Shown here piece after piece: positions 20,638 to 63,268 of a DNA stretch of 64,000 bases. Both the position numbers and the translations under genes were made by a program. The notes below the pieces were generated by a model. The model searched no databases. It was not told where the DNA came from and worked only from the letters and a program-made list of their open reading frames with translations. Source of the stretch: Dryococelus australis (Eukaryota; Arthropoda; Insecta; Phasmatodea; Phasmatidae); NCBI GenBank assembly GCA_029891345.1, contig CM057003.1, positions 14,858,709-14,922,708 on the forward strand, given 5' to 3'. How positions within the stretch are numbered: position 1 is the first letter of the stretch; every line of letters begins with the position of its first letter.

Positions 20638-20931
20638 TAGGGGTTAGTGACATTTCGCGAAAGGATTTCGAGACAAGTTGTATTTGAAGACACTAGGGTC
20701 GTTTACCTATCTAAAGCGGCTGAATTACTATTTTGACGCGTGTTAACTGCCTGCACACAAATCACGTAGGAGCCGTGCCGATGTTGCCGAATTCCGAGTG
20801 TCCCGGTCAAATATGAAAACACCTTCTCAAGCAGACCGCAACCAATGGCAGTAGACACAATGCTGTTGAGTGCTTATAGTAATGAAGTCTACCATGCAAT
20901 AATATTTTTTCGCGAAAAACCACTAGCTCTA
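20638..20931 (+). mobile_element. hAT-type MITE family D with 8-bp target duplication
   Basis: It begins TAGGGGTTAGTGACATTTCG and ends with TTTCGCGAAAAACCACTAGC and TCTA. It is flanked by CCAATAAA (20630-20637) and CCAATAAT (20932-20939), a 7/8 match. The interior contains GTCGTTTACCTATC, GGCTGAATTAC, AATCACG and CCGTGCCGAT, shared with the copies at 26566, 27474 and 51970. There is no coding frame; movement would need a transposase supplied elsewhere. Confidence 0.9.
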
Positions 20932-21040
20932 CCAATAATTCAATAAAACTAAAAGTAGAAAAAATGGCGTGATATATTTGCGAGCTTGTAAAGGGTTTCG
21001 CCTGGCCGTAGCTTATGCGTTCGGGGTCTAGAAACACGTG

Positions 21041-21300
21041 GGGCTGCGGTGGTGTAGTGGTTAGACCACTGGCCTCCCGCCATGACGAAACGGTTTGATT
21101 CCCGGCAGGTCAGCCTTTGGATTTTCGCATGTGGGGATCGTACCGGACGATGCCGCTGATCGGCGGGTTTTCTCGGGGATCTCCCGTTTACCCCCCGCCA
21201 TTGCATTCCGACGCTGCTCCATACTCACTTCGCTTCATCCTCATCGGCTCTCAAGAACTCGATGTTAAGAACCGCCCAAATATTTTCACTCAATCGAAAC
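21041..21300 (+). mobile_element. tRNA-derived SINE (family 1), near full length
   Basis: The head carries an A-box-like TGGTGTAGTGGTTAGACC and the B box GGTTTGATTCC. The conserved body has TTTTCGCATGTGGGGATCGT, GGACGATGCCGCTGATCGGC, GTTTTCTCGGGGATCTCCCG, GCATTCCGACGCTGCTCC and CATCGGCTCTCAAGA. It ends around CCGCCCAAATATTTTCACTC. It would be transcribed by RNA polymerase III and moved by a LINE in trans. Confidence 0.9.
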
Positions 21301-22170
21301 ACGTTAGCTCTAAGGCCGACGCTTTCTCACTCACCACCTGCTTCATCGCCCTTACGCGCAAGGCAAACTGGCGTGCAGTCTTCCTGCCAGCGACTTGCCC
21401 GCATGTGACTTTAAACGATAACCATATCTTTTTAGAACACGATAATAAGGATAAAATTATTATGCGTGTCTTTACACTACTCTGAAGTTTATGTACCGAA
21501 ATTTCAGCAGCTAAAATATATTCTGAAAAATTTTTTTTTAAGTAATTTTGCCATCCATAAATATACTCCTTGGAGTATCAGATCAGCTAGTAACAACCTC
21601 AGACATCAAGAATATGGCGGAGACTGTCCGTAGAAGATAATTAATTAAACTGTCGTGGTAACATAGTAGTAACATAATTTAATATCAATAACAGTGCTCC
21701 CCCGAACGTATAATCATTCAATATCGTGTTAGTTGTCTTATTATTATACATGTTTCACAAACTCAAATATACCCCCTCAATTACAATAGAAGCTCTATCA
21801 TTATACAATTCCAGATACGCCCCTAGCCCCTTCTTGTGTAAATATTACCATGAGTAATACTTATAATAGTGTGAGAAGTTAATATTTTCGTCAGGTGTTT
21901 AGGTTTCGCACTGTGTTCAGATCTGCTGATAATAATGTATATTGAGTTCAAATCCTTTATGTACCTTAATGTATTTCACGATTGTAAACGTATTTTCACA
22001 AGCATGTGTTTTTTTTCCCATCCTATTATCTATGTATACAGGAGGATAACAACGTGCGCAGAATTGACGTGAGGCACTCGTAAGAAAAGTTTTTGATTCC
22101 GGGGATATTTTTTACCGATTCACAAAGAATAACTGCATATCATATCAAAAGCTTTGCACCATGCCGACCA
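21301..22170. other. unassigned AT-rich stretch
   Basis: I see no gene or repeat family after the SINE tail. Confidence 0.5.
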
Positions 22171-22396
22171 TAGGCTATTTATTTACGGCAAAACGAGCAC
22201 TTTTGAAATCCTTCTCACTTGGAATACTAGTCAATAAATATATTTAAATTGAGCGTTAGACGTTAACTTCCGACTACAGTGGAATATACATATTGCATGG
22301 CAATATTGATTTAAAAAGGTGGCTAAGAAGATAAAGTGTCTCAAAGGAAAAAGTAACTAGGGCATGAAATGTGCTCACTGCGCCGTGAACAGCCTC
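22171..22396 (+). mobile_element. MITE family E, short form (E1)
   Basis: It begins TAGGCTATTTATTTACGGCA and ends GTGCTCACTGCGCCGTGAAC plus AGCCT. The interior GACGTTAACTTCCGACTACA and TGGCAATATTGATTT match the other E1 copies. Confidence 0.8.
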
Positions 22397-22529
22397 CAAC
22401 TCCAAGGTGTACGCAAGCAATGTTCGAAACAATCACTTCTATTCAACAAGTGGAATTATGGGTTTGTCAGAGACGAAACGGATTAGAAATGTGAACCCAC
22501 GCCAAATGTTACGAAAACACAATACATAG

Positions 22530-23434
22530 TGTTACAAATTCTCTCCCTAGAAATTAAGTTGGCTGTACCAAGTTCGTTAAGGGATGGAGGTCTTAATTAA
22601 ATAAAAGAATTAATTATAATTTCCTTATTTTATTTACAATAACTACGGAAAATATTCTCTCAACTCAACTTCTCATAATAAATGGATATTACTTAACTGT
22701 TCACAATTGACACCAATTATTAAAATTTACATACTACCGCAAAGAAATTTATGGAATAAAATAATTAAAGATCAGTCCCAATAGACAGTGTATCAACCTA
22801 TTCAATTATTTCATAACTTATGCGTCCATATTTGACAGTTCAAATATTTGCAATAGAGTCAGTATTACACTTCCATTCAGCCCCACCTCAGTTCAGTCCA
22901 TGTCCCGCCAGTCGCAATGTTCTAGAGTCCTCCAAGAGCTCTCACGCACAGTAAGCTTCACTCGTCGGTTTCACGCCCTCTCGTCCATTCACGCCACGAA
23001 CACCTCGCCCGCCGTCGCCCCACAATCTCCCGCCATCGTCCACACTTCACTTCGCTCGCACTCACTCGGCCAGGCGGCCTCCATCAAAGACTGCCGACCG
23101 TTGGATAGCGGCAGTATATATAGTGTCTTAGGCCGCCACCTAGAATCTTCCCCAACTCGCGTGATGCGTCGCGGAGGGCCGATGCGCCAGCCAGTCTCAC
23201 CAGAACATTCTTGCGTCGTCGCTAAACGCATCATAAACTCTAGCAGACGAGAGGTCTGCGAAGGCATCAAGTCTCGCCGCTGTCGGTATCACGGGATTCC
23301 CAGAAGGAGGACAGCCAGCCACGAGCGCATAGTTCCAGGAAGGAGGACAGCCAGCCACGAGCGCATAGTTCCAGGAAGAGGGGAAGGCGAGGTGGGTCAC
23401 CTTCCACTGCACCGGACAGCCGCATCGCGTAACA
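22530..23434 (+). mobile_element. solo-LTR-like element
   Basis: The 905-bp unit begins TGTTACAAATT and ends GCGTAACA, so the termini TGTTAC/GTAACA are inverse, as in LTRs. It has TATATATAG at about 23115 followed by GC-rich sequence. About 500 bp (22735-23300) matches 33601-34200 in the same orientation, which shows it is a dispersed unit. No 4-6 bp target duplication is clear and no internal retroelement lies beside it. The 196-codon frame at 22900-23490 lies inside it and is not a gene by any motif I know. Confidence 0.6.
23303..23374. repeat. 36-bp tandem duplication in the LTR-like element
   Basis: Two nearly identical 36-bp units containing ACAGCCAGCCACGAGCGCAT lie head to tail at 23303-23338 and 23339-23374. 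Confidence 0.9.
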
Positions 23435-23730
23435 ATATTTTAAACCACGGGGAAAAATTAGTGGTTTCCTCCCACGGAGTGAAGCAATAACGAAGGAGTT
23501 GTAGTGGATTGCAAGTAAATTTATGGAAAGGCATCGGCTCAATACGAGTGGTCCATTAAAGTTCTAATGCAAGCAGTAGGAGTTGAGGAATGACAACGTC
23601 GATTGGCCAGCATACGAATGCAAGTCAATACTGTCTTAGAATAGCACACAAAGCCGCCAAGTGTTCAATGGAAGCGCTCCACAAATAGATACAGCTTTTT
23701 ACACATGTATTATAGACTTTAATCTATAAG
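23435..23730. other. unassigned stretch
   Basis: I see nothing recognisable between the LTR-like element and the MITE pair. Confidence 0.5.
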
Positions 23731-24016
23731 TAGAGCCACGAGTATCTCGCGAATTCATTCGGAGACGAGATAGACTCCAAACACTTCTTCGTTTCTCCTA
23801 CTGTTGTGGTTGGACGGCAGTTTTTTAGACCTGCCCCGTTTAACTGTTAGCCACTAATAAGATGGAAGCTGTAGTGTGAGCGATTGTTTTACAGTCCTCT
23901 ACCAAGGCCTCACTTAATCACGGCAACCAATAAACAAACGGCAGTGTCTCGCGTGTATAAAGAGCTGTCCAGCCTAGCTTGCTGCCAACTCTATCCGCGA
24001 AATACTCGCGGCTCTA
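23731..24016 (+). mobile_element. hAT-type MITE family B
   Basis: The left end is TAGAGCCACGAGTATCTCGC and the right end reversed is TAGAGCCGCGAGTATTTCGC. Flanks TCTATAAG and CTATAAC resemble each other. The interior GATAGACTCCAAACAC and the CAGTTTTTTAGACC region are distantly like family A read backwards. Family A starts 7 bp downstream. Confidence 0.8.
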
Positions 24017-24023
24017 CTATAAC

Positions 24024-24315
24024 TAGGGATAGGAAAAATTCGCGAGTTCAATGACCTGTAGGCTAGACTCTACAGTCATGTGTATACTCGAGCCTCAGAA
24101 GTTTGTTCATTGGCTGCTGTCCCATAGAGTAGCCAGTGTTACTTCACGCCTGGCAGTATGGCACACTCTACTTGTTTCCTTACAATTCTTCTATTGGCTC
24201 AGTCTTCCAGGACGTGTCTAATTAACTGCGATCCAATTGCAAAGTCAACTTCAGTGTACACGTGTTTGGCGTCTATCTTGTCCTGAATTGAACTCGCAAA
24301 AAGTTCCTATCCCTA
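24024..24315 (+). mobile_element. hAT-type MITE family A with 8-bp target duplication
   Basis: The ends are TAGGGATAGGAAAAATTCGC and, reversed, TAGGGATAGGAACTTTTTGC. Flanks ACTATAAC (24016-24023) and TCTATAAC (24316-24323) match 7 of 8. The interior holds GGCTAGACTC, ACTCGAGCCT, CATTGGCTGCTG, AGTAGCCAGTG, CTATTGGCTCAG and ACGTGTTTGGCGTCTATC, shared by all A copies. Confidence 0.9.
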
Positions 24316-24822
24316 TCTATAACCCTTTCAGCCCCACTTAAATTTGCAGTCTGAGGTTTGCAAACAAGAAATTTCATTAAGCGTGCTGTATTTAAGTCGA
24401 CACAACACTTGTTTCATTTTCACAGCCAATGAGCTGTAGGATATATATTCGGCTACAGTAATATGAACAAATTATGACGTAGACGGTTTGCGAAACATTT
24501 ACTCACAGGTAAGATCATCGATCTTTGAGCTTCGCAGTGTGTATTACAGACAAAAAATTACCTGCCCATGCGTAATGTACACAACTGTGTTCACTGGATC
24601 AGAAAGGGTTAGTTTGTAATCATATTGTATGTAAATATTTTCACTGATCTTTTGACATGCTTTAAGGATTGTTAGATTGAAACCACAGCATCTGCGTGGA
24701 AACCAAAACTTCTTACTCATATGGGTATTATTCAACTATTATAATACCCTAGCTCCTGTTGATTAGAAATCATTATAAATTCATACAATCTAAAACAATA
24801 TATTCAAAGTTTTCAATACATC
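24316..24822. other. unassigned AT-rich stretch
   Basis: I see no supported feature here. Confidence 0.5.
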
Positions 24823-25177
24823 AAAGAAACTCATTTATATGATACTCTTTTGTTTACAGTAACTAAATATTGGTTTAATTTCAAGAGGAAGTCAGAGAGC
24901 ATAGGTTTGCTGTTAAAAATGTTTTCTTTCTGCGTTTTTATTCTATGGCAATATTAACCTGCTTTATAACCAAGCAATAAACGTTCCTTGAGCTGGTTTT
25001 GGTCTCTGTTAAGAAAGGTTACTTCGTAGCAAAGGTAATGGTTTCCTGACGCACATTGTAGTGTTCAGTACGTAACTGTTATACCGACGCCGAAATTCAT
25101 GAACCAATGTGTTATGCAGCTACGAAACTACAGCCGAGGAAGTTCAGTCTTGCAGAAGTTTGTCATTCTGAAGTGCA
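24823..25177 (+). repeat. dispersed repeat G, copy 2
   Basis: It aligns with 1265-1640 (same strand) through CAAAGAAACTCATTTATATG, TGGCAATATTAACCT, AGCAAAGGTAATGG, CAGTACGTAACTGTTATACC and GTTTGTCATTCTGAAG. The Tc1 derivative lies about 60 bp downstream. Confidence 0.65.
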
Positions 25178-25236
25178 GTGAATCTCCGAATCACGAACCT
25201 CGATCATTCTCAAGAGGCGGCGTTCTACAATATCTA

Positions 25237-25788: not shown

Positions 25789-25817
25789 TAAATAATGTAT
25801 TATGGTACATGTTACTA

Positions 25818-26240: not shown

Positions 26241-26287
26241 TTTTACCTGACACAACCTAACAATCAGAGGTTGTCTGAACACAATGA

Positions 26288-26365
26288 AACTAGTAGTCAT
26301 GTGGTAAAGGACGTTAGGTTAGTAACATGGAGGAAGCGGGTTCGAGTCTTGTAGCCGGTGAATAC
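26288..26365 (+). repeat. tRNA-like sequence
   Basis: A GTGGTAAAGGACG A-box-like run and the B box GGTTCGAGTCT lie at tRNA-like spacing. The acceptor ends do not pair, so this is a tRNA pseudogene or SINE head. Confidence 0.45.
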
Positions 26366-26565: not shown

Positions 26566-26863
26566 TAGGGGTAGTGAAAATTCGTGAAAAGATTTTTCAA
26601 GACAAGTTATATTTAAAAACACCGCAAGGTCGTTTACCTATCTTGACTGGCTGAATTACTTGTTGACACATGTTAACTGTCTGCACACGAATCACGCAGA
26701 GGCCGTGCCGATCTTGCCGAACTCTGAGTGGCCCTGTCAAATATATGAAAACGCCTTCCCAAGCAGACAGTATCGAATGGCAACAGGCAAATTGCTGTTG
26801 GGTGCTTATAGTATTGAAGTCTAACCTGCACTCAGATTTTTTCGCAAAAAATTACTAGCTCTA
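26566..26863 (+). mobile_element. hAT-type MITE family D with perfect 8-bp target duplication
   Basis: Identical TTTATGTT octamers lie at 26558-26565 and 26864-26871. The ends are TAGGGGTAGTGAAAATTCGT and, reversed, TAGAGCTAGTAATTTTTTGC. The interior matches 20638-20931 throughout. Confidence 0.95.
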
Positions 26864-26871
26864 TTTATGTT

Positions 26872-27424: not shown

Positions 27425-27960
27425 TAGGCTATTCGCGGTAAAGCGAGAGCACTTTTGAAAGATCTCTCATTTGTAGAGCTAGTGACATTTCGCGAAACAA
27501 AAAATAAAAATTGGGTACAGGATAGACTTCAATACTACAAGCACCCAACACCAGGTTGTCTATTGCCATTGGTTGCTCTCTGCTTGGGAAGGCGTTTTCA
27601 TATTTGACCGGGCCACTCAGAATTCAACATTTGCACGGCTCGTACGTGATTCGTGTGGAGACAGTCAACACGTGTCAATAAGTAATTCAGCCAATCAAGG
27701 CAGGTAAACGATCCTACAGTGTTTTGAAATATAACTTGTCCTGAATTCTTTTCGCGGAATTTCACTACATCTACTCATCTTGAATACTTATCAATAAATA
27801 CATTTTGATTCACCTTAATCGTTAACTTCAGAGTGCGGTGGAATATATACAGTGTGTTAATTACTTACATGGCAATATTTATTTTAAAGAGGTGGTTAAA
27901 GGATAAAACGACTGAAGGAAAAGTGACTAGAGCCTCAAAATTGTTCACTTTACCAACAGT
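27425..27960 (+). mobile_element. MITE family E1, split by a nested family D MITE
   Basis: The outer element begins TAGGCTATTCGCGGTAAAGC and ends near TTGTTCACTTTACCAACAG. Its body is interrupted at 27474-27773 by a family D element. The sequence reads CTCATTTG before and CTCATCTT after the insertion, giving the target duplication; joined, the E1 body is collinear with 22171-22396. Confidence 0.85.
27474..27773 (-). mobile_element. hAT-type MITE family D nested in family E
   Basis: The ends are TAGAGCTAGTGACATTTCGC and, reversed, TAGATGTAGTGAAATTCCGC. The flanking octamers match 6 of 8. The orientation is opposite to the other two full D copies. Confidence 0.9.
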
Positions 27961-28406: not shown

Positions 28407-28647
28407 ACAGTCAGTTATATTGGTCTCTGTATTCACATTTACAATCGTCCTATTGGTTCAAACGACACCGGAGATGCTTACTATACTGTACATTGTTCAT
28501 TACTGGCCGGCTCTCTAGCAATATAATGCCGAGTTTAAAGTGTCCCAATCAAACGTTCTTTCCTACTTATAACAATGTACAATCCAGCCTGTTTAGCTTG
28601 TCCTGAAGTGAATTCGGGAAATTTCCGTGTCCGTATACATCACATAA

Positions 28648-28890
28648 ATAGACTCCAAACACATACACATTTGACTTAATTTAACTATTGGGTCGCAGTT
28701 CATAGGAGACGTCCAGGACGAATTTGAGCCAGTAACTGACCTGCAAGAAAACAATAAATCGAATCCCGTGTTACCTGGTCTGAAGTAAAACTGGAGTTAT
28801 CAGACGATGAACAACTCACTGAGGCTCGACTACACAAAAGGTTGTGGAGTCTAGCTTGTTGCAGATGAATACGCGAAGTTTCCCGGTTTC
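28648..28890 (-). mobile_element. decayed family A/B MITE
   Basis: On the minus strand it keeps AACTTCGCGTATTCATCTGC, GTCGAGCCTCAGTGAGTTG and TGGAGTCTATTT blocks of A and B. The TIR facing 28648 is lost. A second fragment with an A-like 3' end (CTTGTCCTGAAGTGAATTCG) lies just before it at about 28590-28645. Confidence 0.5.
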
Positions 28891-29817
28891 CTTGTAATCT
28901 ACACGTTGAGTGTTTATAATATAATAATACATTGCAGGGAACCTGGTGAACACTGCTGGCGAAGTAATATTTCATCGCGAGTGTCTTCTAACAATGGAGT
29001 TGTCGTAATGTTACAGCAAACTCCACACAACGCAGTTAAATTAACGTGACGTTATATTACTCCACCATATTTTTCTGTCGTTGAAATCAGGTCAGATATT
29101 TTCAGGCCGTGGCAAAAAAAAATGTCGGTCAATTACTGTCGAATAACATGAACTTAAGAGTTTTCTGAAGAAAATAACATTGGAAAATTATATCGGTGAA
29201 GTATTGCAAGATTTAATTTATTGGTATAGGCGTAAAGAATTCATTTTATTCTACTGACTCGGTAATACTAATGTTACTGAACTTCATTTCAATTGTCAAC
29301 GTCTGGGAGGAATCTGATTTAACGAAAAAAACAAATAGACAAATTATAAAGAATAATCGTGTTCAACGAGGAAAGCATATGAAACGGCACCAGCGTGCTT
29401 CTGGTGCAGAAACAAACGAAACCATTAGAATGTAAAGAAGGGAACTGTGAAGTAAACAGTTCTGCCAAACATAAAGTGAAGAGTTCTATTTCGGTTACTT
29501 CTGCAGTTGGATCACGATTTTAGAATCTTGCATGGCTGTCAGTGAAGGAGGCTCTCTTTATTTAGTGTATCTTTCTGTGGGTGGGAGAGGATAACATAAA
29601 CTACTTTAAAAGGACTGCAAGGGTGTTATTAGTGGTTATAAAAAAAGTACTCTTATTTTGTAATTGCAGAAAATTTTGGTGGTCAGTATAAAATACTCGT
29701 GTCATTGCAGGAACATTTTGACAGGATTAATTGCAGGAAATAAAAAGAAGTAAAAAAAGTCGTGAAACCAGACTACAGCCACTAAAATTACTTGGGTTCT
29801 TATGATTTCCATAAATA
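28891..29817. other. unassigned AT-rich stretch
   Basis: I see no gene or repeat family here. Confidence 0.5.
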
Positions 29818-29825
29818 CTTATAAA

Positions 29826-30119
29826 TAGGGATAGGAAAATTTTGTGAGTTGAATGACCTGTAGACTAGACTCCACAGTCCTGTGTACACTCGAGCCTCAT
29901 CTGTGTGTTCATTGGCTGCGTCTCCAGAGAGTAGCCAGTGCTGCATCACACCTGGCACTGTGTGACTCGCTACATGTTTCCTTGCAAGTCTGCTATTGGC
30001 TCAGAGACGTCCAGGGTATGTTCAATAAACTGTGAGCCAATTGCAAAGGTGACTTCACAGTAAATGTGTTTGAAGTCCATATTGTACCGAAATTAATTCG
30101 CGAAATTTTCGTATACCTA
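29826..30119 (+). mobile_element. hAT-type MITE family A with perfect 8-bp target duplication
   Basis: Identical CTTATAAA octamers lie at 29818-29825 and 30120-30127. The 5' end is TAGGGATAGGAAAATTTTGT; the 3' end, reversed, starts TAGGTATACGAAAATTTCGC. The interior follows the family A order. Confidence 0.95.
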
Positions 30120-30390: not shown

Positions 30391-30650
30391 GGGGTGGTGG
30401 TGGCTGAATGGTTAGACTGCTCGCCTCCCACCAAGGTGAACCGGGATCGATCCCCCACTGGGTCACTACCGGATTTTCGCAAGTGGGAATCGAGCCGGAC
30501 GATGCCGCTGGTCGGCAGGTTTTCTCGGTGATCTCCTGTTTCTCCCGCCCTTACATTCCAACGCTTATTTATTGTTACCTCAGTTCACCCTCATCGGCTC
30601 TCAAGACCTGGTTGTTAATAGACGGCCAAATCTCTCAACTCAACTCAAAG
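30391..30650 (+). mobile_element. tRNA-derived SINE (family 1), near full length
   Basis: The head has TGGCTGAATGGTTAGACTGC (A box) and a B-box-like GGGATCGATCC. The body follows the family through TTTTCGCAAGTGGGAATCGA, GACGATGCCGCTGGTCGGCA and TCGGCTCTCAAGACC, to CTCTCAACTCAACTC. Confidence 0.9.
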
Positions 30651-41514: not shown

Positions 41515-41809
41515 TAGGCATAGGAAAATTTCGCGAATTCATTTCGGTACAAGATGGACGTCAGACACACATACAGCAAAGACACCGTTGCAATTGGATC
41601 ACAGTTCATTGAACATGCCCTGGACGTCTCTGAGCCAATAGCACACTTACAAGGAAACTCGTAGCGAGCCCCATACTGCCAGGTGTGGTGCAACACTGGC
41701 TATTCTGTGGAGACGCAGCCAATGAACGCACAGCTGAGGCTCGAGTTTACACAGCATTGTAGACTCTAGCCTACAGGTCACTCAACTCGCGAAATTTTCC
41801 TATCCCTAC
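41515..41809 (-). mobile_element. hAT-type MITE family A
   Basis: The ends are TAGGCATAGGAAAATTTCGC and, reversed, TAGGGATAGGAAAATTTCGC. The left flank is CCAATAAG and the right CATATAGG (5 of 8). The interior is a good minus-strand match to the other A copies, with CCAATAG, CCAATG and TCTAGCCTACAG blocks. Confidence 0.9.
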
Positions 41810-42526: not shown

Positions 42527-43282
42527 AGTAGTATAAAAAAGGTGGTTATGACTCACCTGGCTCCTGGCTCGGGACACAGGGACACAAAAATGTAAGTTAA
42601 GGTAGCATCACAAACGGCGGCCATTTTGTCAGCCAGTAGCAACGGTGGTCATTTTTCCAGCCAGGGCGGCCATGTTGTCAGCAAATACCGATGGCGGTCA
42701 TCTTGGATTTCGCTTTTTTCCCTTTTTCCGTCACAAATGACGGATTTGGGGTTATATAAAAACCATCCTTTTTTCCCCTTTTGTCCTACAAAAATTCCCG
42801 AAGTTCCCTCCCGCCGATGGGGACCATCTTGGCAGCCAGTGCCAGAAAGTGCCTTTGCACAATCTGGTTGGAAGTTTGCACATTGCGGCTGAGGTTTGCA
42901 CAATGCGGCTGAATCGGTCGGAGCTTCTCTCAAATTCGGAGCTTCTCAAATTTCTGCCAAATTGAGACATCATTCCTGGTGGCCATCTCGGTATCGATGA
43001 CCTATGTCTACTCGGGACAGTTGGAGGCCAGCTGAGGATGTAGACCATTTTGCTGGCCAGCAGCAGCAGACATCAAATGTGGTGGCCAGAAACATCTCGA
43101 ACGATAGCGTGAACGTACACCGCCTCTTCCATAAATCTGTCAGTCGGAACTTTTTTGTGATGAGACCTCTCCTTACATATTTGTGTCCTTGTGTCCCAAG
43201 CCAGGAGCCATGTGAGCCAGAACTCTATATTTTACAATAGTAAACAACCCCCTCCAGCAATTTGTGTGTGTGCATAACACAT

Positions 43283-43758
43283 GTAAGCATAGTTGGCTAT
43301 AATTTCCGAACCATTGAGATATAGTTGTCAAATTCATTACATGGACATCACTCCAGACAAGGAAAATGACCGAATATCAAGAGTGACCTAAGCATGCTTA
43401 TAAGCATAGTTTGCTGTAATTTCCAAACCATATAAGTTATAGTTGCCAAATTCATAACATAGACATCAATTATAACTATGAGAACAGTCGTGGGGTCAAG
43501 TATGCCCTATGCCAACTAATATGCATAGTTGGCTATAATTGCCGAACAATTTGAGTTATAGTTGGCAAATTCATAACATAGTCTTCACCTCCCGACTATG
43601 AGAAGGGGGTCGCCATCAAGTATGACATATGGCAACCTATAAGTATAGTTGGCCATAATTTTCGAACCGTTTAAGTTTAGGTGTCAAATTCAAACATAGG
43701 CATCAATCATAGGTGTGAGGTCTCCCTGATAGCACTTCCTTCTCTATTATTCCGGTCG
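43283..43758 (+). repeat. 119-bp subrepeat array in the left foldback arm, four units
   Basis: Units start near 43283, 43402, 43521 and 43640. Each contains GCATAGTTGGCTATAATTTC, GTTATAGTTG, CAAATTCATAACATAG and a CAAGTATGACCTATGCC-like end. A partial unit recurs at 43915-43960. Confidence 0.85.
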
Positions 43759-44158
43759 GTGGTCTCTCGGTGCACCCAACCGATATCAGTAGTATAGATT
43801 TTTGTGTTTTCCTTCCTTCATACCGTAAGTGTTCATGTCCCACTCACAGTCAGTGTGTAAGGGGGAGACCCCATTCTAAGACACCCTGCCAGTCTCAGAT
43901 CAAGTACGACCTATGCTTACATATATGCATAGATGGCTATAATTTCCGAAGCATTGGCGGCCTCCATATCGCCAGCCAGTGACCATTTTTTTTTTTAAAT
44001 TTCGATTAACATCGAATGGGGTGGACACAAACATCTCGAATGATCACACGTGCGCACATACACCGCATCCTCCAGCGGCCTGTCAGTGCCAATAAATGCT
44101 ACCAGTTGGTGTGTAAAAATTTTCTTTTCACTTGCTGCCAAAATGACCACCACCATCA

Positions 44159-44557
44159 GTTTAATCGCGAAATTTATACTGGATGCCAAAAGGCTGCCAG
44201 CATCATAACGAACGTTGTGGAAATTTCCACGAGGAAAACGAAATCAGAATTATTTGTGATAAAACATTAACTTACATTTTTGTGTCCCTGTGTCCCGAGC
44301 CAGAAGCTAGGTGTCCCAGAACCAACTATAATGCTACTGACATGCACACACATCGCTGGTGGCCATCGCCATCTGTTTAATCTTGAAATGTATACTGGCT
44401 GCCATAATGGCTGCCAGCATCGTAACGAATGTTCTGGAAATTCCCATGAGGAAAACAAAATCGGAATTATTTGTGTTGAGACCTTAACTTTTATTTTTTT
44501 GTCCCTGTGTCCCGAGCCAGAAGCCAGGTGTCCCAGAACCAACTATAATGCTACTCA

Positions 44558-44590
<33 letters not shown>
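44159..44590 (+). repeat. 216-bp tandem duplication in the left foldback arm
   Basis: Units 44159-44374 and 44375-44590 both run from GTTTAATC through GCTGCCAGCATC, GAGGAAAAC, TCCCTGTGTCCCGAGCCAGA and CCAGAACCAACTATAATGCT. The right arm has one copy only (about 45360-45555), so the duplication arose after the arms formed or the other copy was lost. Confidence 0.85.

Positions 44591-44595
<5 letters not shown>
44563..44595. repeat. (CA)n microsatellite in the left arm
   Basis: It pairs with the (GT)n tract at about 45329-45354 in the right arm, but the two differ in length. Confidence 0.9.
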
Positions 44596-44596
<1 letters not shown>

Positions 44597-44857
44597 GTCA
44601 CTGGTGACCATGTTGTGACTGACCACCAAAAGGGCACCCACTTACCGATTAGCTTCTTTATCTTATTATTAATATGAATTATCCCCTCCCATACCTTAAC
44701 TGATGTAGCAGTGAACACCCATAGGCCACGAGCACGTCACGACGCGACCTCGCTGGAAGCAGAGACCACAAAGATCGGTCCTGCCTTCCTGTGCATGGTA
44801 TATACCAATCAAATACCTCATCCCCACCACCACCTACCTCCCCCTTATCAATGCATT

Positions 44858-45066
44858 TACCAGTTTATCATGTATTTAATCTGAACCAACCTCGAGGTAT
44901 TGCAGGTTCGATTCTCATAGAGAGTGATAATAATGATAATAATAATACAAGTGGATATAAAACCTGTCATTTTGTCTACAACAGTGTTAGTAATTACAGA
45001 CAGCCAGTCCCCAACCTGCACCAGCGTACCAAGCCCATCCCACACACGTGCAATCACAGATAGTTA
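44858..45066. other. central loop of the foldback element
   Basis: This 209-bp segment is single copy within the window. It contains GGTTCGATTCTC (B-box-like) and an (ATA/ATG)n patch at 44929-44949. It is not large enough to encode a transposase. Confidence 0.75.
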
Positions 45067-46020
45067 TATGCATTGTTGATAAGAGGGAGGGAGGTGGCAT
45101 TGGGGATGGAATACTTGATCAGTATCTTCCATGCACGGAAAGGTGGGGCCGGTCATTGTGGTCTCTGCTTGAAGTGAGGTCACATAGTGACGTGCTTGCA
45201 GCCTATGGGTATTCACTGCAACATCAGTTAAGGTAAGGGAGGCGATAATTCGTAATAATAATAAGACGAATAAGCTAATCGGTAAGTTGATGCCCTTTTG
45301 GTGGTCAGTCACAACATGGCCACCAGCGATGTGTGTGTGTGTGTGTGTGTGTGTGCGCGTGCGCGCCCATGTGAGTAGCATTATTGTTGGTTCTGGGACA
45401 CCTGGCTTCTGGCTCGGGACACAGGGACACAAAAATGTATGTTAGGGCCTCATCACAAAGAATTCCGATTTTATTTCCGTCGTGGAAATTTCCAGACTGT
45501 TCGTTACGATGGTAGTAGCCATTTTGGCAGCCAGTATACATTTAAAGGTTAAACCGATGGTGGCATTCATTTAGGCAGCAAGTGAAAGAATAAATAAATA
45601 AATATATATGTTTTGCACCGACTGGTAGCATTTATTGTCCCTGACAGACATCTGGAGGAAGCAGTGTACATGTGTGCATGTGATCGTTCGAGATGTTTCT
45701 TGCTGCTCCATTCGAAGTCAATCGAAATAAAAAAAAATTGCCACTGGCTCGCGACATGGAGGCCACCAACGCTTTGGAAATTACAGCCTTCTATGCATTT
45801 ATGTAAGCATAGGTCGTACTTGACCTGAGACTAGTAGGGTGTCTTGGAATGGGGTTTTCCCCCTCCACTCTGAATGTGTGAGCAGGACATGCACAATTTC
45901 GGTAGAAAGGATGGAAAACACAAGAACTGTAAGACTAATATTTGTTGGGAGCACCCAGAGACCACTGATTAGAATTATAGAGTAGGAAATGCTATCAGGG
46001 AGACCTCCCACCTATGATTG

Positions 46021-46330
46021 ATGCCTATGTTATGAATTTGACACCTATAACTTTAATACTTCGGAAATTATGGCCAACTATGCTTATAGGTAGCCGTATG
46101 TCATACTTGACCATGACCCCATTACCATAGTGGGGGTTGATGCCTATGTTATGAATTTGCCAACTATAACTAAAATGGTTCGGTAATTATAGGCAACTAT
46201 GTATATGTTGGCATAGGGAATACTTGACCCCGCGACCCTTCTCATAGTCATGATTGATGCCTAAGTTAAGAATTTGCAACTATAACTTAAATAGTTCGGA
46301 AATTACAGCCAACTATGATTACATATATTA
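46021..46330 (-). repeat. 119-bp subrepeat array in the right foldback arm, three units
   Basis: Units begin near 46021, 46140 and 46257 and are inverse to the left-arm array, which has four. A partial unit lies near 45775-45830. Confidence 0.8.
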
Positions 46331-47205
46331 TACACACAGACTGCTGGGGGGGGGGGGCAGTGTACTAGTATAAAATATTGAGTTCTGGCTCACTTGGCTC
46401 CGGGCTTGAGACACAAGGACACAAATATGTAAGTTGAGGTCTCATCACAAAAAAATCCGACTGACAGACCACTGGAGGAGGCAGTGTACGTGCGCACGTG
46501 ATCGTTCGAGAAGTTTCTGGCCACCACATTCAATGTTTGCCACTGCCACTGGCCACCAAAATGGTCGACATCCTCAGCAGGCCACCAATTGCCCTGAGTA
46601 GACATAGTTCATCGATACCAACACAGCCACCGGGAATGATTTCCAAATTTTTACAGGAATTTGAGAAGCTCCGAATTTGAGAGAAGCTCCGACCGATTTA
46701 ACCGCATTGAGCAAACCTCAGCTGCAATGTGCAAACTGCCAGCCGAGTTGTGCAAAGGCACTTTTTGGGACTGGCTACCAAGATAGCCGCAGTCAGCGGG
46801 AGGAACATTCGGAAATTTTTGCGGGACAGAGGGAAAAACAATGTTTTTTTTTTACCCCAAATCTGCCATTTTGGACGGAAAAAGGGAAATCCAAGTTGGT
46901 CACAGTAAGTACTGACTGGCAAAATAGCCGTCCTGGCTTGCAAAGTGGTCACCGTCAGTACTGACTGACAAAATGGCCTCTATGTGATGAGACCTTAACT
47001 TACATTTTTGTGTCCGTGTGTCGTGAGCTAGAAGCCAGGCGAGCTAGAACCGCCTTTTTTATACTACTGATATGTGTTGAATAGGCAACATATAACTTTG
47101 ATAATTTTGTTCTGTAAGCTTCATATGTGTGTACCTAATTTTACTTTTCCTTCAACAAATGTGTTATTTTGGTTACACTGTTGTATGCTGAACTATACTG
47201 TTGCG

Positions 47206-49855: not shown

Positions 49856-50652
49856 GCAACTGCCTATGGAGCATTGCACCCGACTGTACAATGTGAAGAA
49901 CTCATTAAAAAATTAGTACATACACCATAAGAATTGTCAGAAAGGTGTGATTTTTGCTGTATATGAAAGAAGAGAGTGTATATTTTCCAACATTATAAAA
50001 CAATTTACAAAAATATACGTTTTAAATATATGTAATTAATCAATCGATAGAGTCCTCATTTTTAACAATATTTAAGCGCTTTTCCGCTTTGGATTCGGAA
50101 AGCTGAATTTACAAGAAAATCTTCAAGAAAGATCTTCATAATATTTACTGTGATCATGTCTGTCATCATAGCATTTATGTATCATATCAATTTTATAATT
50201 AGCTTTACTTGCGTCAATTTCAGCCATAGATGTTTGTGACAAATAGAGGCACATGTAATATATTATAAAAATTATTTCCTACATGATTATTTCAATTTAC
50301 TTACACACAACCATAGTAAACTTTATGACGATATTCCATGAAGATTTTCTTACAAATTCTGCTTTTGAAGCATCCAGAATGGAAATTTGCTTTAATTTTG
50401 TTAAAAAATACAACTATTTTAATCGATTATTTTTTCACATTTAAAAAGTATATTTTATAATTTTGTAAAATGCATACATTCTTCTTTCATATAAAGCATA
50501 AAACGCACTTTTCTGACCATTTTTATAAGGTTTGTACTACTTTATTTATGAGTTCTTCACGTTGTACAGTCGGGTCCTGCAGTGCTCCATAGGCAGTTTA
50601 TTTATGAGTTCTTCACGTTGTACAGTCGGGTCCTGCAGTGCTCCATAGGCAG
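49856..50652. mobile_element. long-TIR element with a duplicated right end
   Basis: The left end (ACTGCCTATGGAGCATTGCA, CCCGACTGTACAATGTGAAG) and the right end reversed (CTGCCTATGGAGCACTGCAG, ACCCGACTGTACAACGTGAA) match. The inverse similarity continues about 170 bp inward (ATATGAAAGAAGA, ACATTATAAAA-like blocks). The outermost 56 bp of the right side is present twice, exactly, at 50541-50596 and 50597-50652. The middle is AT-rich and non-coding. Confidence 0.85.
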
Positions 50653-50660
50653 TTTATTTA

Positions 50661-51560: not shown

Positions 51561-51839
51561 TAGGGATATGAACAATTCGCGAGTTCAATGACCTGCAGGC
51601 TAGACTGCACAGTCATGTGTGTATTCGAGCCTGAGATGTTTGTTTATTGGCTGCTGCCCCACAGAGTAGCCAGTGCTACTTCACACCTGGGAGTATGGTA
51701 CTCGCTACTTGGCTATTGGCTCGGAGCCGTCCAGGGCGTGTTTAATAAACTGCGATCCGATTGCAAAGTCAACTTCAGTGCACACGTGTTTGACGTCTAT
51801 CTTGTCCTGATAATAACTCGCGAAATGTTCCTATCCATG
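51561..51839 (+). mobile_element. hAT-type MITE family A with perfect 8-bp target duplication
   Basis: ATAATACC lies at 51553-51560 and 51840-51847. The 5' end is TAGGGATATGAACAATTCGC; the 3' end reads CGCGAAATGTTCCTATCC and then a decayed terminus. About 15 bp around the middle ATTGGCT block are missing relative to other copies. Confidence 0.93.
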
Positions 51840-51969: not shown

Positions 51970-52212
51970 TGGTCCGACACGTTATACTTCAAATCACTGT
52001 AGTGTCGTTTGCCTACCTTGATTGGCTGAAGTACTTTTAGGCACTTGCTAACTGTCTGCGCACGAATCACGCAGGAGCTGTGCCGATATGGCCCGGTCAA
52101 ATATGAAAACGGCTCTCAAACAGACAACAACCAATAGCAACTGGCTGCGTGTTTATTGTATTGAAGTCTGCCGTCTACTGATATCGTTTCGCGAAAACTC
52201 GCATCTCTACAG
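51970..52212 (+). mobile_element. MITE family D, 5'-truncated
   Basis: It keeps GTCGTTTGCCTACCTTGATT, GCACGAATCACGCAGGAGC, CAAATATGAAAAC and the 3' end TCGTTTCGCGAAAACTCGCA. The first 20-30 bp, including the left TIR, are missing. Confidence 0.8.
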
Positions 52213-52702: not shown

Positions 52703-52975
52703 TAGTAGTCGGGCAACTCGCCTCCAGACAAGGTGAATATGGTTCGATTCCCAGCGGAGTCTCCCCCGGATTTCCGCATGTGGGAATCCTGCCTGACGAT
52801 TTTGGTCTTTGGCGGGTTTTCTCTCATGGATCCCCCGTTTCCCCCATCATTGCATTCCGACGCTGTTCCAGTCTCATCTCATTTCACCCTCAACGGCTCT
52901 CAAGAAGTTTGTGTTAACAGCCGCCCGAATCTCTTCACTCGCTTACCTCAACCTCACTCTCAACTCGCATCAAGA
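52703..52975 (+). mobile_element. tRNA-derived SINE (family 1), head truncated
   Basis: It begins inside the tRNA-like head (CGGGCAACTCGCCTCCAGAC), keeps the B box GGTTCGATTCC and then the family body to CCGCCCGAATCTCTTCACTC. It directly abuts the MITE E end. Confidence 0.9.
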
Positions 52976-54254: not shown

Positions 54255-54764
54255 TAGGGACAACGGCACTTCACTAAAGGATTTCCATGCACGCTAAATT
54301 TTAATACTCTATAGGGTTCCAGCAGTTTTTTTCTTATTAGTGGGGTGACTTTGTGAGGATGGATATATATATGCATACATACACACACACACACACACTT
54401 GGCAGGCCAATCTGAATTAAGTAACTCCGGTAGCGTACGTCTGTGATTCGCGGGCAGACACCTAAGACGAGTAACGCCTAGATCGTCCCATCACGAATAG
54501 AAATAGAATTTGTAGCTTAAATGACGGGCTCCCAGACTAACAGCCACCTTCCCACAAAAAAAATGCGTATCTATATAACTAATATACTGTTTGTTAAATT
54601 GTAGTAGTCATGGTAGAATTGAACATTCTGTATGGCTGTACTGCTAAGTAGGGCAATGTATTAAATTAAAAAAATAAAAAATAAATTAGGAACGTGGATT
54701 TGAGCTAATGTGTTATGCAGTATAATTGGTCGTGAAATATTTTCGCGAAATGCGAGTGTCCCTA
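54255..54764 (+). mobile_element. hAT-type MITE family F with 8-bp target duplication
   Basis: The left end is TAGGGACAACGGCACTTCAC and the right end reversed TAGGGACACTCGCATTTCGC. Flanks GCTATAAG (54247-54254) and GCTATAAA (54765-54772) match 7 of 8. The interior CTTGGCAGGCCAATCTGAAT and GTCTGTGATTCGCGGGCAGA is shared with 58390-58983 in inverse orientation. A (CA)n tract at 54379-54399 has expanded inside. Confidence 0.85.
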
Positions 54765-55905: not shown

Positions 55906-55965
55906 TTAGGCCTCGGACGTGCAGCATTCCTTCAACCAAGCGGCCACCAGGACTGTTGGGTTGAA

Positions 55966-58382: not shown

Positions 58383-58389
58383 TAATATA

Positions 58390-58983
58390 TAAGGACACCC
58401 GATTTTTGTGAAAAGGTTTCATGACCATTTGTATTTGATAACACTATAGCTCAAATCCACTTTCTTAATTGGAAGATTTACGTGTAACGCTTCTTAGGTG
58501 TCTGCTCGCGAATCACAGACGCACAATACACGATTATTCTAATTCTGATTGGCTGGCCAAGTGAGAAAATGTTTTCTCTCAAAGACACGCGACCAATAAG
58601 TAGGGATAGGAACACTTCGCGAGTTCAGTGACCTACTGGCTAGACTCCACAGTCCTGTGTACACTCGAGACTCTCATGTGTATTCATTAGCTGCTGCTCC
58701 AGAGAGTAGCCAGTGTTACTACACACCTGGTAGTATGGCACTCGCTACTTGTTTTCCTTGCTAGTCTGCTATTGGCTCAGAGTCGTCCAGATCGTGTCTA
58801 ATGAACTCTGATCCAACTGAAAAGGTGACTTCAGTGTACACGTATTTGACGTCTATCTTGTCGTGACGTGAATTCGCGAATTTTTCCTATCCCTATTAAT
58901 AAGGAAAAGAACACTGCTGATATACTCAATATATTGAAACTTAACATGCACGGAAATATTTTCGCGAAATTTGGGTGTTGCTA
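58390..58983 (-). mobile_element. hAT-type MITE family F with perfect 8-bp target duplication, interrupted
   Basis: GTAATATA lies at 58382-58389 and 58984-58991. The ends are TAAGGACACCCGATTTTTGT and, reversed, TAGCAACACCCAAATTTCGC. A family A element with its own duplication sits inside at 58601-58895. The first base of the left duplication is the last base of the Helitron, so F inserted exactly at the Helitron edge. Confidence 0.9.
58601..58895 (+). mobile_element. hAT-type MITE family A nested in family F
   Basis: The ends are TAGGGATAGGAACACTTCGC and, reversed, TAGGGATAGGAAAAATTCGC. Flanks are CCAATAAG and TTAATAAG (6 of 8). Confidence 0.93.
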
Positions 58984-58991
58984 GTAATATA

Positions 58992-59149
58992 TACTAAGTA
59001 TTGTAGAAGTTTGGTAAGGTTTGTAAGGTTATATTTAACACAGAAAAGGGATAAACGTTAATACGAGAACAATACCATTTACAATATTGCTCAAAAGGGA
59101 TTCTCTTACAATGTGCATAGGTAAGGGAAATCTGGCAAGGGCACGAGGC
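58992..59149. other. unassigned short stretch
   Basis: I see nothing recognisable here. Confidence 0.5.
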
Positions 59150-59650
59150 ACAAGGAAATTTGTTCCACCTCAAGTAACAGTTGTCATCCCTGGCTCCGGG
59201 AGTGGCCGCGCTAACAGAACTGGAACTATCGGCCTTGCGTCGGGGATATTTTCACTCCCCCCTCCCACCCTCGCGTTCCGTATTTTCCGAGCGTCCAGCA
59301 GCCGTGGCCGAAAACCCTGCGTCATCCCTTGCACCCTCGCTTCTCCCACCCCCTCCATATCCTTAACCTTAACGAATCCCTTCGCTAATTGCCTTAATTT
59401 CCCGAGTGTAACGACGCGCGGTTTTAGTGGATTGGGTGGGGGGAGGGTGGAATGATCCCGCCACCGGGCGTTTACCCTTAAAATTCTCTTTTAATGTCCG
59501 AGCGCAAGGGGAAAGGAGGATAAGGGTGGGTCTGCTGCGGCAACTTCGCAGCGCCCCAACCCCTATATTCAAGCCCCTTCTCTGCACCCACAGCACGAGC
59601 GACCAACAGCTTGGAAACCCTCCATAATGTGGCTTCCTCGTAAACTCCAT
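59150..59650. other. CpG-rich island, no supported gene
   Basis: A sharp local rise in CpG is followed by long frames on both strands (122 codons plus, 93 minus). Poly-Pro/Gly stretches come from C and G tracts. No domain is recognised. It could be a promoter-type island. Confidence 0.4.
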
Positions 59651-61794
59651 CGCGCGCCTTGCAGCAAGAACGCTACCAACCTCGCAGAACAGAAAACCTC
59701 TTACAAGATTTCTCTTTGCTGTTCGAAAAAATTCGTCTTCGACAGCGAAATGAATTGTGTACTAAAGTTCTGCTTGTTGAACGTACAATATCTTGTTTCC
59801 ATGTTATTTAGGTCGCGGTTACACGGGACGCAGAACTACTTCACTTTGAACGAGAAACAACTGCGATCGAAACTAGTTCGAAGGTAATATAACCTCTTCA
59901 ATATTTGAACTTGTTTTAGTGAACAGTTTCATAAGTAGTTTCGAACGACTTCTCTTCTCTACTGCGCTCCTATTGGCTGCTTCGAAGTAAACAAGCAGTG
60001 TGAAAAATTTTTGCTGTATTTCGCGGGAACTCCTGCACTTGTTGAATTGATTAGGTTTAAGGTTGAATCTACTAATAACCACCCATTATGCAATTACACC
60101 AAAAGTGTAGGATTAATGACGATTAAAAAATCAGTAGTGATAAATGTTGGAGGCTATTGTAATTAAATATCTTACATTAGAAGTTCTATGTTTGTTGAGG
60201 TTAGAATTTCCATAGATTTCATTCTGTTTTGGGTGTGTGACCGCGAAAACACGTTCTGTTTTTAAACTTGTTCAGCCATGGCTACTGAATGAATTTAGCT
60301 GAATGTGTTTAACAGCACTCGTGTAGCCACGGCCTAAGTCTTCTGCACGTATCTTGATGGGGTCTGGCGTAAATGTCGACTGGAGAGAGAAGACATATGA
60401 GAGAGTTGGCACTACCAGGTTAGAGATCGGGTCAGATTTGGAGTTGCCAACTATTACGTGTTGCCAACCATGTAGAATTAAATTTGTAATAATTTACCGA
60501 ACTTCCATTTCTAACTTGTGTAATCAAACGCGATAACTCACGAGCTTATTTAGGCGTTTAACGTACTAAATTATTTTTCTGAGCATATTTTTTTTTTCAA
60601 GATTATAGAAAGAAATATCCGTTGTCTCTGCAGTGTGCCATATATGTCTTATACATGTTATCTGCCTAACGTAATTGTATATCGTAAATTTCCAGTGAAG
60701 TATTTTTATCTGCAGTAACCATTATGGGAGTATTGAAGTCAAATAATTAATTAACCACGAATCTGTAAAACTATTTGCTGAGGGTGATGAAAATTTTCGA
60801 ACGTTGGAGACAGAATTTTCAAAATGAAATATTTAGAATCTTATTTCTTACGTGTTTCGTGCCGTTAACGAACGTTTCATAAGTCGTCGAAAGTAGTGCC
60901 CGAACACACGAGATGGACAAATATTCAAACAGGGAAGCCGTAAAAACAGAATAACCATGAGTCCACGCCTCATAAATCGAAAATGGTTTACCATATTATC
61001 TCGGCGAAACTTGTTTAGATAAGTAAAACGAAACGGATTCGTATTATACCCAGGAATAACTTCGGCATAAATCTTGAATCACGTCAATGATTGTCAGCTT
61101 TGATGTAATTTCAAAGTCGGTACACACGTAACGGTTCGTATTCGATAAAAACACAATACGCCGTATCTAGTGTTACCATGTGTGTAATCTTAGCAGAGAA
61201 TTAATTAAAGTAGTGTAAGGCTTTTACACAACGTTCATTCGTAGCTTTATCAATTTCAGTATAGTCGCTCATACATAGACATTTAAAAACTGATTTGTTG
61301 TGATCGAAACTAGCGTACCTGCCCGGTGTTCAGATGGCAAGTGTAGATTAGGTGTGGTGACAGGACTGAGATATTTTCAGCAAAGACTAGATTACCAACT
61401 TACACCATCCCGTAGTCTCCCCCAGGTAAGGAACACCGTACCTCAGAAATACTCGTGCTGTTGTCCTCTCTTTAACAAACTCCTACCTCAGAGAGAAAAG
61501 CTGGAAGACACATCGAAACCTTAGCATATTTTATAGAACAACCATTAGTCAGTTTCCAAATACTACTAAAAGAAATACTGGCCATGAAAAATCTAATAAG
61601 ATTTTATTCAAATCTTAAAGAAAAATTAAATAAACTGATATTTACTTTAAACAAAAAGATTTTTTTAGAGACTCTCCATGTTCATAAAATTTAATAAATT
61701 GATCTAACTTTAAAAATGAGTAGGTGTGAAACCAATACATGACAATTTAAACTATTATTGTATTACAGATCTTCAAAAATGAAACAATACTGTG
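59651..61794. other. unassigned AT-rich stretch
   Basis: Short frames of up to 86 codons lack motifs. I see no repeat of the families listed. Confidence 0.5.
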
Positions 61795-62454
61795 GTGATC
61801 GCAACTGGAGTAGCCGAACTCGGTCAAACTTGCCATTACTCAATCAATAAGCAATTTATGTTAAATATCTGCCGGGTCGTGTTGGGCTGGAAAAATACTG
61901 AGCGTCTATAGCTAGTACAAAATGGCTTCCGGGTAGCTTCCCTCCATTAATATTAATCCGCGGCCATCTTTCCAAAAATCGATTAAATCTTACGAATTCC
62001 GTAGTCGTCTCGCTGTTCTTCCTCCGGGCGTCATCCTGAAGTTCCCCGATGTCGCTGGTCCTCGGCGCAGTCCAAACAAGCTTCCCTCACTTTCGGGATA
62101 TCGAACCCTGGTACTGCGAAGCTACAGTCCAACTTTCGTACCACACGGAAATCGCGGCCGTCGAAATTAAATTATTCTTCTGAACACGTAGGAAGCCCGT
62201 GCAGACATCTTCTGCTCTCCTCCTTGCTCACATCTTCGCCCGCAGGCTGTCTGCTACACCTCGGCGACGAGACTCGGACTTTCGCTACACTAATTGAATA
62301 AAAATCTACCGGGTCTGCGGTACCGTCGCAGCCTGCCTGACAGATCGAAAACCAATATGTCTTCCTCTCACCCTATCTCATAAGGTCTAGCTTGAATCGA
62401 CTCTCCAATCATGTTGCGGCTACTCCAGTTCGTCACGAGGTTGCCCTGGCAACC
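61795..62454 (-). mobile_element. element with 14-bp inverted ends, possibly an LTR in minus orientation
   Basis: AACTGGAGTAGCCG at 61803-61816 is exactly inverse to 62417-62430. Between them is GC-richer DNA with AAGATGGCCGCGG on the minus strand and a minus-strand TTTTTATTCAAT region near 62296. No target duplication is clear and no coding part is seen. Confidence 0.4.
62439..62454. promoter_or_regulatory. RFX X-box-like palindrome
   Basis: GGTTGCCCTGGCAACC is a perfect 7-bp inverted repeat with a 2-bp centre and matches the RFX consensus GTNRCC, 0-3 bases, RGYAAC on both halves. Confidence 0.45.
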
Positions 62455-62980
62455 ATAAACAACAGCTTACGTTTACTGCCACGTGACTAAATCAACACAT
62501 TACAACTGGAAACACTTATAACAGTGAAATATATGAGATATTAATAATTAAATAATAAAATATAAGTAAAACAAATTATGTGACTACACATGACGTGAAA
62601 ATAAATATCACTACGCATATGAAACAATATTCAAATCAAATCAAATTAATTCAGTTTAGTAACAGTGCATAAATAATCATAGATGGCGGAACGCATAGTA
62701 AAGTAATTCTACTACATGCGTGACAGCAGTGTCGTGTCCCAACGTATTGCTGTAGATGTCATGTCTATAATAGTGCAACTGAAATTGGGTTCTCTTTTTT
62801 GTATACTCATCTGAGCAAGAGCGGGCATAATTGTATCGTGTTGGTTTTCTTTCATTTTCATGACATCATTGAATCGATGTAGGGATATGCAATCACTATG
62901 TCAATGTTAACTTGATATATGGCGTGAGTGACATTCTTAAAGATGCTCTATAAACCGCAAAAAAAAAAAAAAAAAAAAAC
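62455..62980. other. unassigned stretch ending in an A tract
   Basis: A run of about 20 A at 62960-62979 stands where the first bases of the following MITE would be expected. Confidence 0.5.
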
Positions 62981-63268
62981 TAAGAAAAATTCGCGAGTTC
63001 AATGACCTGTAGGCTAGACTCCACAGTCATGTGTATACTCGAGCCTGGGATGTTTGTTTATTGGCTGCTGCCCCATACAGTAGCCAGTGTTACTTCACAC
63101 CTGGCAGTATGGCACTCACTACTTGTGTCCTTGCAAGTCTGCTATTGGCTCAGAGTCGTCCAGGGCGTGTCCAATAAACTGCGATCCAATTGCAAAGTCA
63201 ACTTTAGTACACACGTGTTTGACGTCTATCTTGTCCTGAAATGAACTTGGGAACTGTTCCTATCCCTA
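62981..63268 (+). mobile_element. hAT-type MITE family A, 5' end replaced by an A tract
   Basis: It begins within the TIR (AGAAAAATTCGCGAGTTC) and ends GTTCCTATCCCTA. The interior is one of the best matches to the A copies at 24024 and 51561. Confidence 0.9.

Follow-up and report, generated by a model that had tools for sequence, protein, structure and literature searches.

The question raised by a 64,000-nucleotide stretch of the genome of the stick insect Dryococelus australis (assembly GCA_029891345.1, contig CM057003.1, positions 14858709-14922708; hereafter the window) is whether several families of short repeated elements that share the same kind of end are moved by the same enzyme. The window consists of repeat-rich DNA with 40% GC, in a genome of 3,415,067,245 bases on 646 contigs, and carries five families, designated A, B, C, D and F, of miniature inverted-repeat transposable elements (MITEs). 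The explanation favoured here, to which a probability of about 0.58 is given, is that they are MITEs of one end-compatible group, whose movement in trans would be the work of a single transposase of hAT type or of a tight lineage of such enzymes.

In all five families the ends start with TAG, and positions 16-22 hold TTCGCGA or a variant of it, as had been proposed in the initial annotation of this DNA; every position named there was checked and found to agree. The signature is exact at 24024 (A, TAGGGATAGGAAAAATTCGCGA), at 27474 (D, TAGAGCTAGTGACATTTCGCGA) and in the reversed end at 54764 (F, TAGGGACACTCGCATTTCGCGA), and it shows one mismatch each at 23731 (B, CTCGCGA) and 54773 (C, TTCGCGT). 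The one-base offset that had been reported for the D copy at 20638 is likewise present, with the block displaced in TAGGGGTTAGTGACATTTCGCGA. Three of the four C ends have T at position 22, the remaining one being displaced by one base. The 28 ends delimited in the window align without gaps over about 55 bases, the exceptions being the lost tip of one A copy (A6) and four ends with small indels. Counted on both strands, TTCGCGA occurs in the window 30 times against 5.8 expected, and TAG-N12-TTCGCGA with up to two mismatches 69 times against 39.8 expected. The observation of a common end signature is confirmed, and it extends far beyond the window.

Over the whole 3.4-Gb genome, exact TAG-N12-TTCGCGA is found 66,668 times as compared to 1,437 times for the reversed pattern, a 46-fold excess, while a spacer of 13 bases instead of 12, the two lengths compared, gives 5,338 matches against 1,902 for the reversed control. 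An independent test of the block at 16-22 employed 60 genome elements drawn from the first 100 matches listed, all on one contig (contig C1, 0.85-4.23 Mb). These elements had been picked by one exact end, and hence only their partner ends and flanks constitute unselected evidence; to prevent circularity, the second end was located solely by an exact second copy of the 8 bp flanking the left end. Such a repeat was located in 14 of the 60 elements against 0.26 expected, and of the partner ends so reached, 12 carry TTCGCGA at positions 16-22 with no more than one mismatch and all 14 with no more than two. In other registers, with starts from 6 to 30, the block with at most one mismatch was absent save at start 29 (three of the 14 partner ends). 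These observations support an end signature that is fixed and present throughout the genome. Since only one of the 14 partner ends is exact at 16-22, the genome probably holds many times more ends than these 66,668, and the elements perhaps number hundreds of thousands. Two-ended elements are 195-510 bp long, mostly 240-300 bp, and are short, of high copy number and bounded by paired terminal repeats as in MITEs; with lengths of about 300 bp they would have no coding capacity. Viral contigs scanned for the A tip gave no match.

The interiors of these families fall into two groups. Clustering was carried out with 50 two-ended elements, 36 from the genome sample and 14 from the window, by similarity over at least 60% of their length; the 36 had been chosen by duplication match and end profile jointly (22 match at 7-8 of 8 flanking bases and 14 at 0-6), and the 24 of the 60 sampled elements that lacked a clear second end were omitted. 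The resulting clusters were D and F together with a further family, P (TAGGGCCACCTG); A; another family, G, with TAGAGACCTG; B; C; the pair L120/L129; and the window copy F1 alone. Interior profiles were then compared after trimming 45 bp off both ends, with L120 and L129 omitted from these as from the end-composition and register comparisons described below, and F1 and L099 omitted from the interior profiles. A matches B at 39.6 bits, C at 38.6 and G at 32.0, B matches C at 28.7 and C matches G at 23.7, with B to G reaching only 6.7, while the profiles of D, F and P match each other at 57.8-128.5 bits; the maxima obtained with shuffled sequences were 3.0-10.0 bits overall, and the best score between the two sets was 8.0 bits. 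By sequence comparison, the interiors thus form two homologous groups, group I (A, B, C and G) and group II (D, F and P), with no clear homology between them. The suspected kinship of D with F and of A with B is borne out by these profiles, while the view that the families have mostly different interiors holds between the groups and fails within them. A faint relation between the two groups is possible, as D to G (6.5 bits) and F to G (7.7 bits) score slightly above their own shuffle maxima (5.0 and 6.0); these matches fall some 55-110 bases inside the G element, in the region of an ATTGG box.

The existence of two interior groups made it possible to ask which parts of the ends are held in common between them, and more than two blocks emerge. 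Both groups share TAG-G at positions 1-5, the block at 16-22, a third block, CANGNTANANTNCA, at 36-49 and, in most ends, an inward ATTGG near 78-86, whereas most of the spacers are not shared and positions 4-15 of the tip vary by family. The tip consensus is TAGRG, with G at position 5 in 90% and 89% of the ends in the two groups. hAT elements have short terminal inverted repeats with the tip YARNG, and TAGRG fits this form. In the register comparison, 50 group I ends were compared with 46 group II ends in and out of register, this null being used instead of letter shuffling, which flagged every segment. The cross-group match in register stands out at 16-22 (z 4.8 and 5.4), at 36-49 (z 5.6 and 6.0) and at 76-90 (z 4.5 and 3.1), and is low at 4-15, 24-35, 50-60, 61-75 and 91-110 (z 0.8-2.1), these z values being rough as they come from 25 and 23 elements of related sequence. 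At 76-90, the match in one direction (1.87) barely exceeds that of the best shifted register (1.50). As selected ends are included in the end-composition and register comparisons, positions 1-3 and 16-22 are partly selected, and 36-49 and 76-90 are not. Inward ATTGG at 61-115 was found in 69 of the 96 ends and the reverse, CCAAT, in three, with about five expected for each. Genome-wide, TTCGCGA-N13-CANGNTANA occurs 25,011 times (control 38), whereas a displacement of two bases from this register gives 481 (control 24). Such totals are inflated by family descent, and it is the cross-group register test that argues for constraint. The signature had been described as bipartite, of which the tip and the 16-22 block are real and the restriction to two parts does not stand. 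Conservation by position, which had been proposed as a check, proved to be block-wise, and this fits the suggestion that the families diverged while their ends were held constant.

A second line of evidence comes from the target site. All 14 exact 8-bp duplications carry AT at positions 4-5, as do 20 of the 21 elements whose flanks match at 7-8 of 8 bases, and the left flanks of the sampled genome elements are AT-centred in 48 of 60 cases (by tip family, A 9/10, F 11/15, D 2/2, D-right 3/4, P 13/15, G 8/9, B 2/3 and other 0/2, the sample holding no C). Within the window, 25 of the 28 flank octamers are AT-centred against a base rate of 8.2%; seven of the 14 two-ended elements have flanks matching at 7 or more of 8 bases, for which the chance is 0.00077 per pair, nine match at 6 or more, and the other five, B1, C1 and C2 among them, match at one to five. 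Among the exact ends of the whole genome, AT occupies the target centre in 47,849 of 66,668, as compared to 81 of 1,437 control matches; part of this signal is expected to have been lost, since copies differ by about 13-16% from their majority sequences. Matching duplications of 7-8 bases, an 8-bp duplication being a hAT trait, were found in A, D and F and also in G and P, and hence in both interior groups. As the target rule is set by the enzyme, its occurrence in families of both groups is independent evidence, and nothing else speaks as strongly for a transposase lineage shared by the families; B and C contribute only AT-centred flanks to it. The hAT-Ac duplication rule is nTnnnnAn, and T at position 2 and A at position 7 are found here in only 10 and 11 of 21 cases, whereas all 21 have T at position 5 and 20 have A at position 4, the resemblance being weak at most. 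Nor do the 14 exact duplications, with AT at 4-5, follow the hAT-Buster rule nnnTAnnn (PMC3517528; this and the other sources cited by PMC number are represented here by excerpts). A literature search for the written form nnnATnnn, alone and with hAT terms, gave no match, other notations not having been searched, and one for TTCGCGA with terms for terminal inverted repeats gave nothing relevant, its one match concerning Drosophila P elements; TTCGCGA is likewise absent from the papers retrieved by a broader search.

The search for an autonomous partner started from transposase-related profiles, with 6,309 candidates for PF05699, 2,997 for PF02892 and 2,989 for PF14291, of which 150 for each profile were scored. 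A small sample of 70 loci was read (30, 30 and 10, respectively, the 10 being chosen by hand), with L013/L069 and L021/L070 representing the same two places and the 60 PF05699 and PF02892 loci extending only some 1.5 kb on either side. Scored with the end profile, these loci yielded only weak single scores of up to 14.2 (L014) without the block, as compared to 14.0-41.6 for the MITE ends in L001-L008, so that a badly decayed end could escape. The profiles PF14372 and PF18758 (KDZ) gave no match in the genome, and control genomes likewise gave none. One end pair 3.6 kb apart (L079, contig C1) was considered as a single long element and rejected, as it consists of several separate MITEs of these groups and other repeats.

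Three of the transposase-related loci have paired ends of their own, which differ from the MITE ends, and duplications that are not AT-centred: L032 (TAGGGGTGTGCGAATA, duplication AGCTTGAC), L046 (CAGTGGCGTAGCG, duplication CGCCCATA/CTCCCATA) and L055 (TAGGGATGTTGGAAAA, duplication GCACTGGA). L046 has the one end encountered in this genome that we take to be Tip100-like; its ends differ from those of the present elements and its duplication lacks an AT centre. Elements of the hAT Tip group make 8-bp duplications as well, and their target preference was left uninvestigated by the authors, as far as the excerpt goes, so that an AT centre is possible there (PMC3942097).

On the favoured explanation, in which a single hAT-type enzyme or a tight lineage mobilises all families in trans, the catalytic part of the enzyme would read the tip, a pair of BED zinc fingers would read the TCGCGA palindrome (17-22), set in rigid phase with the cleavage site as shown for Hermes, and the deeper blocks would supply further contacts. 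If only these end modules are required, interiors would be free to drift or be replaced, so that one end code could come to be shared by several families in two interior groups; B and C would presumably be moved by the same target rule. Several points weigh against this explanation. None of the 70 loci read among the 6,309, 2,997 and 2,989 candidates has TAG-N12-TTCGCGA ends, and the partner may lie outside the loci read, may have diverged or may have died out. B and C yielded no matching duplication, although their flanks are mostly AT-centred (window copies in Table 1; the two-ended B copies L090 and L097 match at 5 of 8), and among the 36 genome elements with two ends, 14 have flanks that agree at no more than 6 of 8 bases, which is ascribed to age as a supposition. 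AT-centring follows neither the Buster nor the Ac rule, so that no known hAT group is recovered. With no partner among the loci read, hAT membership is presumed from the tip and the length of the duplication, and the putative BED-dimer site is drawn by analogy with other systems. The earlier proposal that one hAT transposase may drive all five families is therefore upheld in part, through the fixed ends and the AT-centred 8-bp duplications of A, D and F, and stands open to doubt for B and C and for want of a partner in the loci read.

Among the alternatives, the one that survives best, though we regard it as rather unlikely, invokes several related hAT transposases, for instance one per interior group, which descend from a common ancestor and do not cross-mobilise now. 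The two interior groups without clear mutual homology, the family-specific tips and the lack of a confirmed duplication in B and C would all suit it, but the palindrome, the third block and the AT-centred target are found in both groups, and nothing observed demands a second specificity. It is improbable that the ends were merely inherited from one ancestral element, the blocks being kept by chance with no transposase selecting for them. Across the groups, three blocks hold their register and most spacers match little better than in other registers, as judged from the rough z values. Common descent is nevertheless real within each group, copies so little diverged from their majority sequence would have kept much anyway, and the D-to-G and F-to-G scores point the same way. 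The fit of TAGRG to the hAT tip leaves a slender chance for a transposase from another superfamily, such as Zisupton/KDZ, P, Merlin-like or Mutator-like. Of these, the search covered KDZ alone, and its profile was silent in the control genomes too. In its favour, the loci read contain no hAT gene with these ends, and 8-bp duplications also occur outside hAT, as in Zisupton (PMC12730594). Finally, an artefact of chance or low complexity, with CpG-rich palindromes in an AT-rich genome, has nothing but the shortness of each motif to recommend it and is ruled out by the genome-wide counts, the comparison with spacer 13 and the number of exact duplications.

The elements delimited in the window are listed in Table 1 and comprise 14 two-ended copies (six A, one B, two C, three D and two F), one truncated D copy and two degenerate A-like relics. 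Because A5 is nested in F2, whose duplication is exact on both sides, A5 must have been inserted after F2.

Table 1. MITE copies and relics in the window, with their flanking octamers (matches given as bases of 8).
Element	Position	Strand	Description	Flanks
A1	24024..24315	+	Group I, 292 bp	Target duplication ACTATAAC/TCTATAAC, 7/8
A2	29826..30119	+	Group I, 294 bp	Exact duplication CTTATAAA
A3	41515..41808	-	Group I, 294 bp, opposite orientation	Match 5/8, both sides AT-centred
A4	51561..51839	+	Group I, 279 bp	Exact duplication ATAATACC
A5	58601..58895	+	Group I, 295 bp, nested within F2	Match 6/8
A6	62975..63268	+	Group I, left tip lost in A-run	Match 2/8, right flank AT-centred
B1	23731..24016	+	Group I, 286 bp, 7 bases from A1	Match 1/8, left flank TCTATAAG AT-centred, right not
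C1	54773..55070	+	Group I, 298 bp, TTCGCGT at 16-22	Match 5/8, both AT-centred
C2	28114..28406	-	Group I, 293 bp	Match 4/8, one AT-centred
D1	27474..27773	-	Group II, 300 bp	Match 6/8, both sides AT-centred
D2	20638..20931	+	Group II, 294 bp, extra base in left tip	Duplication CCAATAAA/CCAATAAT, 7/8
D3	26566..26863	+	Group II, 298 bp	Exact duplication TTTATGTT
D4	51976..52209	+	Truncated D copy, left end lost; right end at 52209, TTCGCGA one base nearer the tip	AT-centred flank CAGATGGC
F1	54255..54764	+	Group II, 510 bp, exceeds family length, CA-type microsatellite	Duplication GCTATAAG/GCTATAAA, 7/8
F2	58390..58983	-	Group II, split by A5	Duplication GTAATATA, exact at both sides
A-like relative	28591..28635	+	Isolated right end (TACGGACACGGAAATTTCCCGA on the minus strand)	
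Degenerate A-like relative	28648..28893	-	Body 28648-28855 matches A1/A6 at 68-70%; end near 28893 placed by eye	

Other repeats are also present in the window. A long imperfect inverted repeat at 42543-46500, with tandem units of about 119 and about 217 bp on its arms, is possibly a large foldback element, and a degenerate 15-bp tandem array at 5220-5344 (consensus TTAGGCTAAACGCAA) includes TTAGG, the insect telomere word. One repeat family occupies 21041-21291, 30471-30641 and 52768-52940 and recurs near 221 and 56086; its copy at 21041 begins with the tRNA-like GCGGTGGTGTAGTGGTTAGACCACTGGCCTCCCGCC and by eye resembles a short interspersed nuclear element, while ARAGORN found no tRNA in the window and an Rfam scan of the window gave no match. 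An interspersed family at 4797, 9590, 22333, 26180, 51466 and 52639 shares a stretch like AAAAGTGCTCACTTTATCGTGAACAGCCT, and the family bearing it, inverted near 4672 and 27430, is perhaps a further MITE group. Two perfect tandem duplications, at 50541-50660 and 23303-23378 (56-bp and 36-bp units, about 2.1 copies each), are recent or assembly-related because their copies match at 100%.

Among the known systems closest to this end code is Hermes, in which a quasi-palindrome lying in bases 11-27 of the left end is bound by BED domains with rigid phasing, and in which a shift of one base away from the tip severely impairs cleavage (PMC10368747). Both systems combine a tip, a quasi-palindrome (bound in Hermes by two BED domains), rigid phasing and subterminal sites further inward, but in Hermes the BED domains recognise AAGT and adjoining AT-rich DNA in place of TCGCGA, and only the left end binds BED domains in the complex (PMC10368747), whereas here both ends carry the same modules. 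The TCGCGA core is included in the in vitro site of ZBED1/hDREF, TGTCG(C/T)GA(C/T)A (PMC6179265), and ZBED genes are of hAT origin (PMC3606216), but ZBED1/hDREF is a host transcription factor and the likeness is one of site sequence only (PMC6179265). The hAT-Buster MITE Mar of Drosophila is likewise short, non-coding as the present elements probably are, and has an 8-bp duplication whose fixed central dinucleotide was used in classification, but this centre is TA as compared to AT here, and Mar is one family in which 74 copies (79% of those found) keep terminal repeats (PMC3517528), while the exact ends counted here run to tens of thousands and belong to more than one family. In coral CMITEs, diverging MITE families also keep a short terminal motif and their authors suggest possible cross-mobilisation; these are of piggyBac type with TTAA duplications, however, and it is the CMITE interior that is conserved while the terminal repeats vary (PMC2872659).

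The new element in this comparison is the modular end code across two interior groups combined with an AT-centred 8-bp target rule. Which parts of their ends hAT transposases need is, in our judgement, known from few systems, and the present families amount to a natural mutagenesis in which two interior groups and many tips retained mainly certain blocks at fixed spacing. The AT-centred rule is a simple diagnostic with which to look for the enzyme, and hAT classification could gain a third target class from it. Tentatively, and with less than even probability, an undescribed hAT lineage with target class nnnATnnn beside those of Ac and Buster, and with a multi-block end code in which pairs of BED fingers would sit on TCGCGA at a fixed distance, may have driven a whole radiation of MITEs, possibly making up several per cent of this 3.4-Gb genome.

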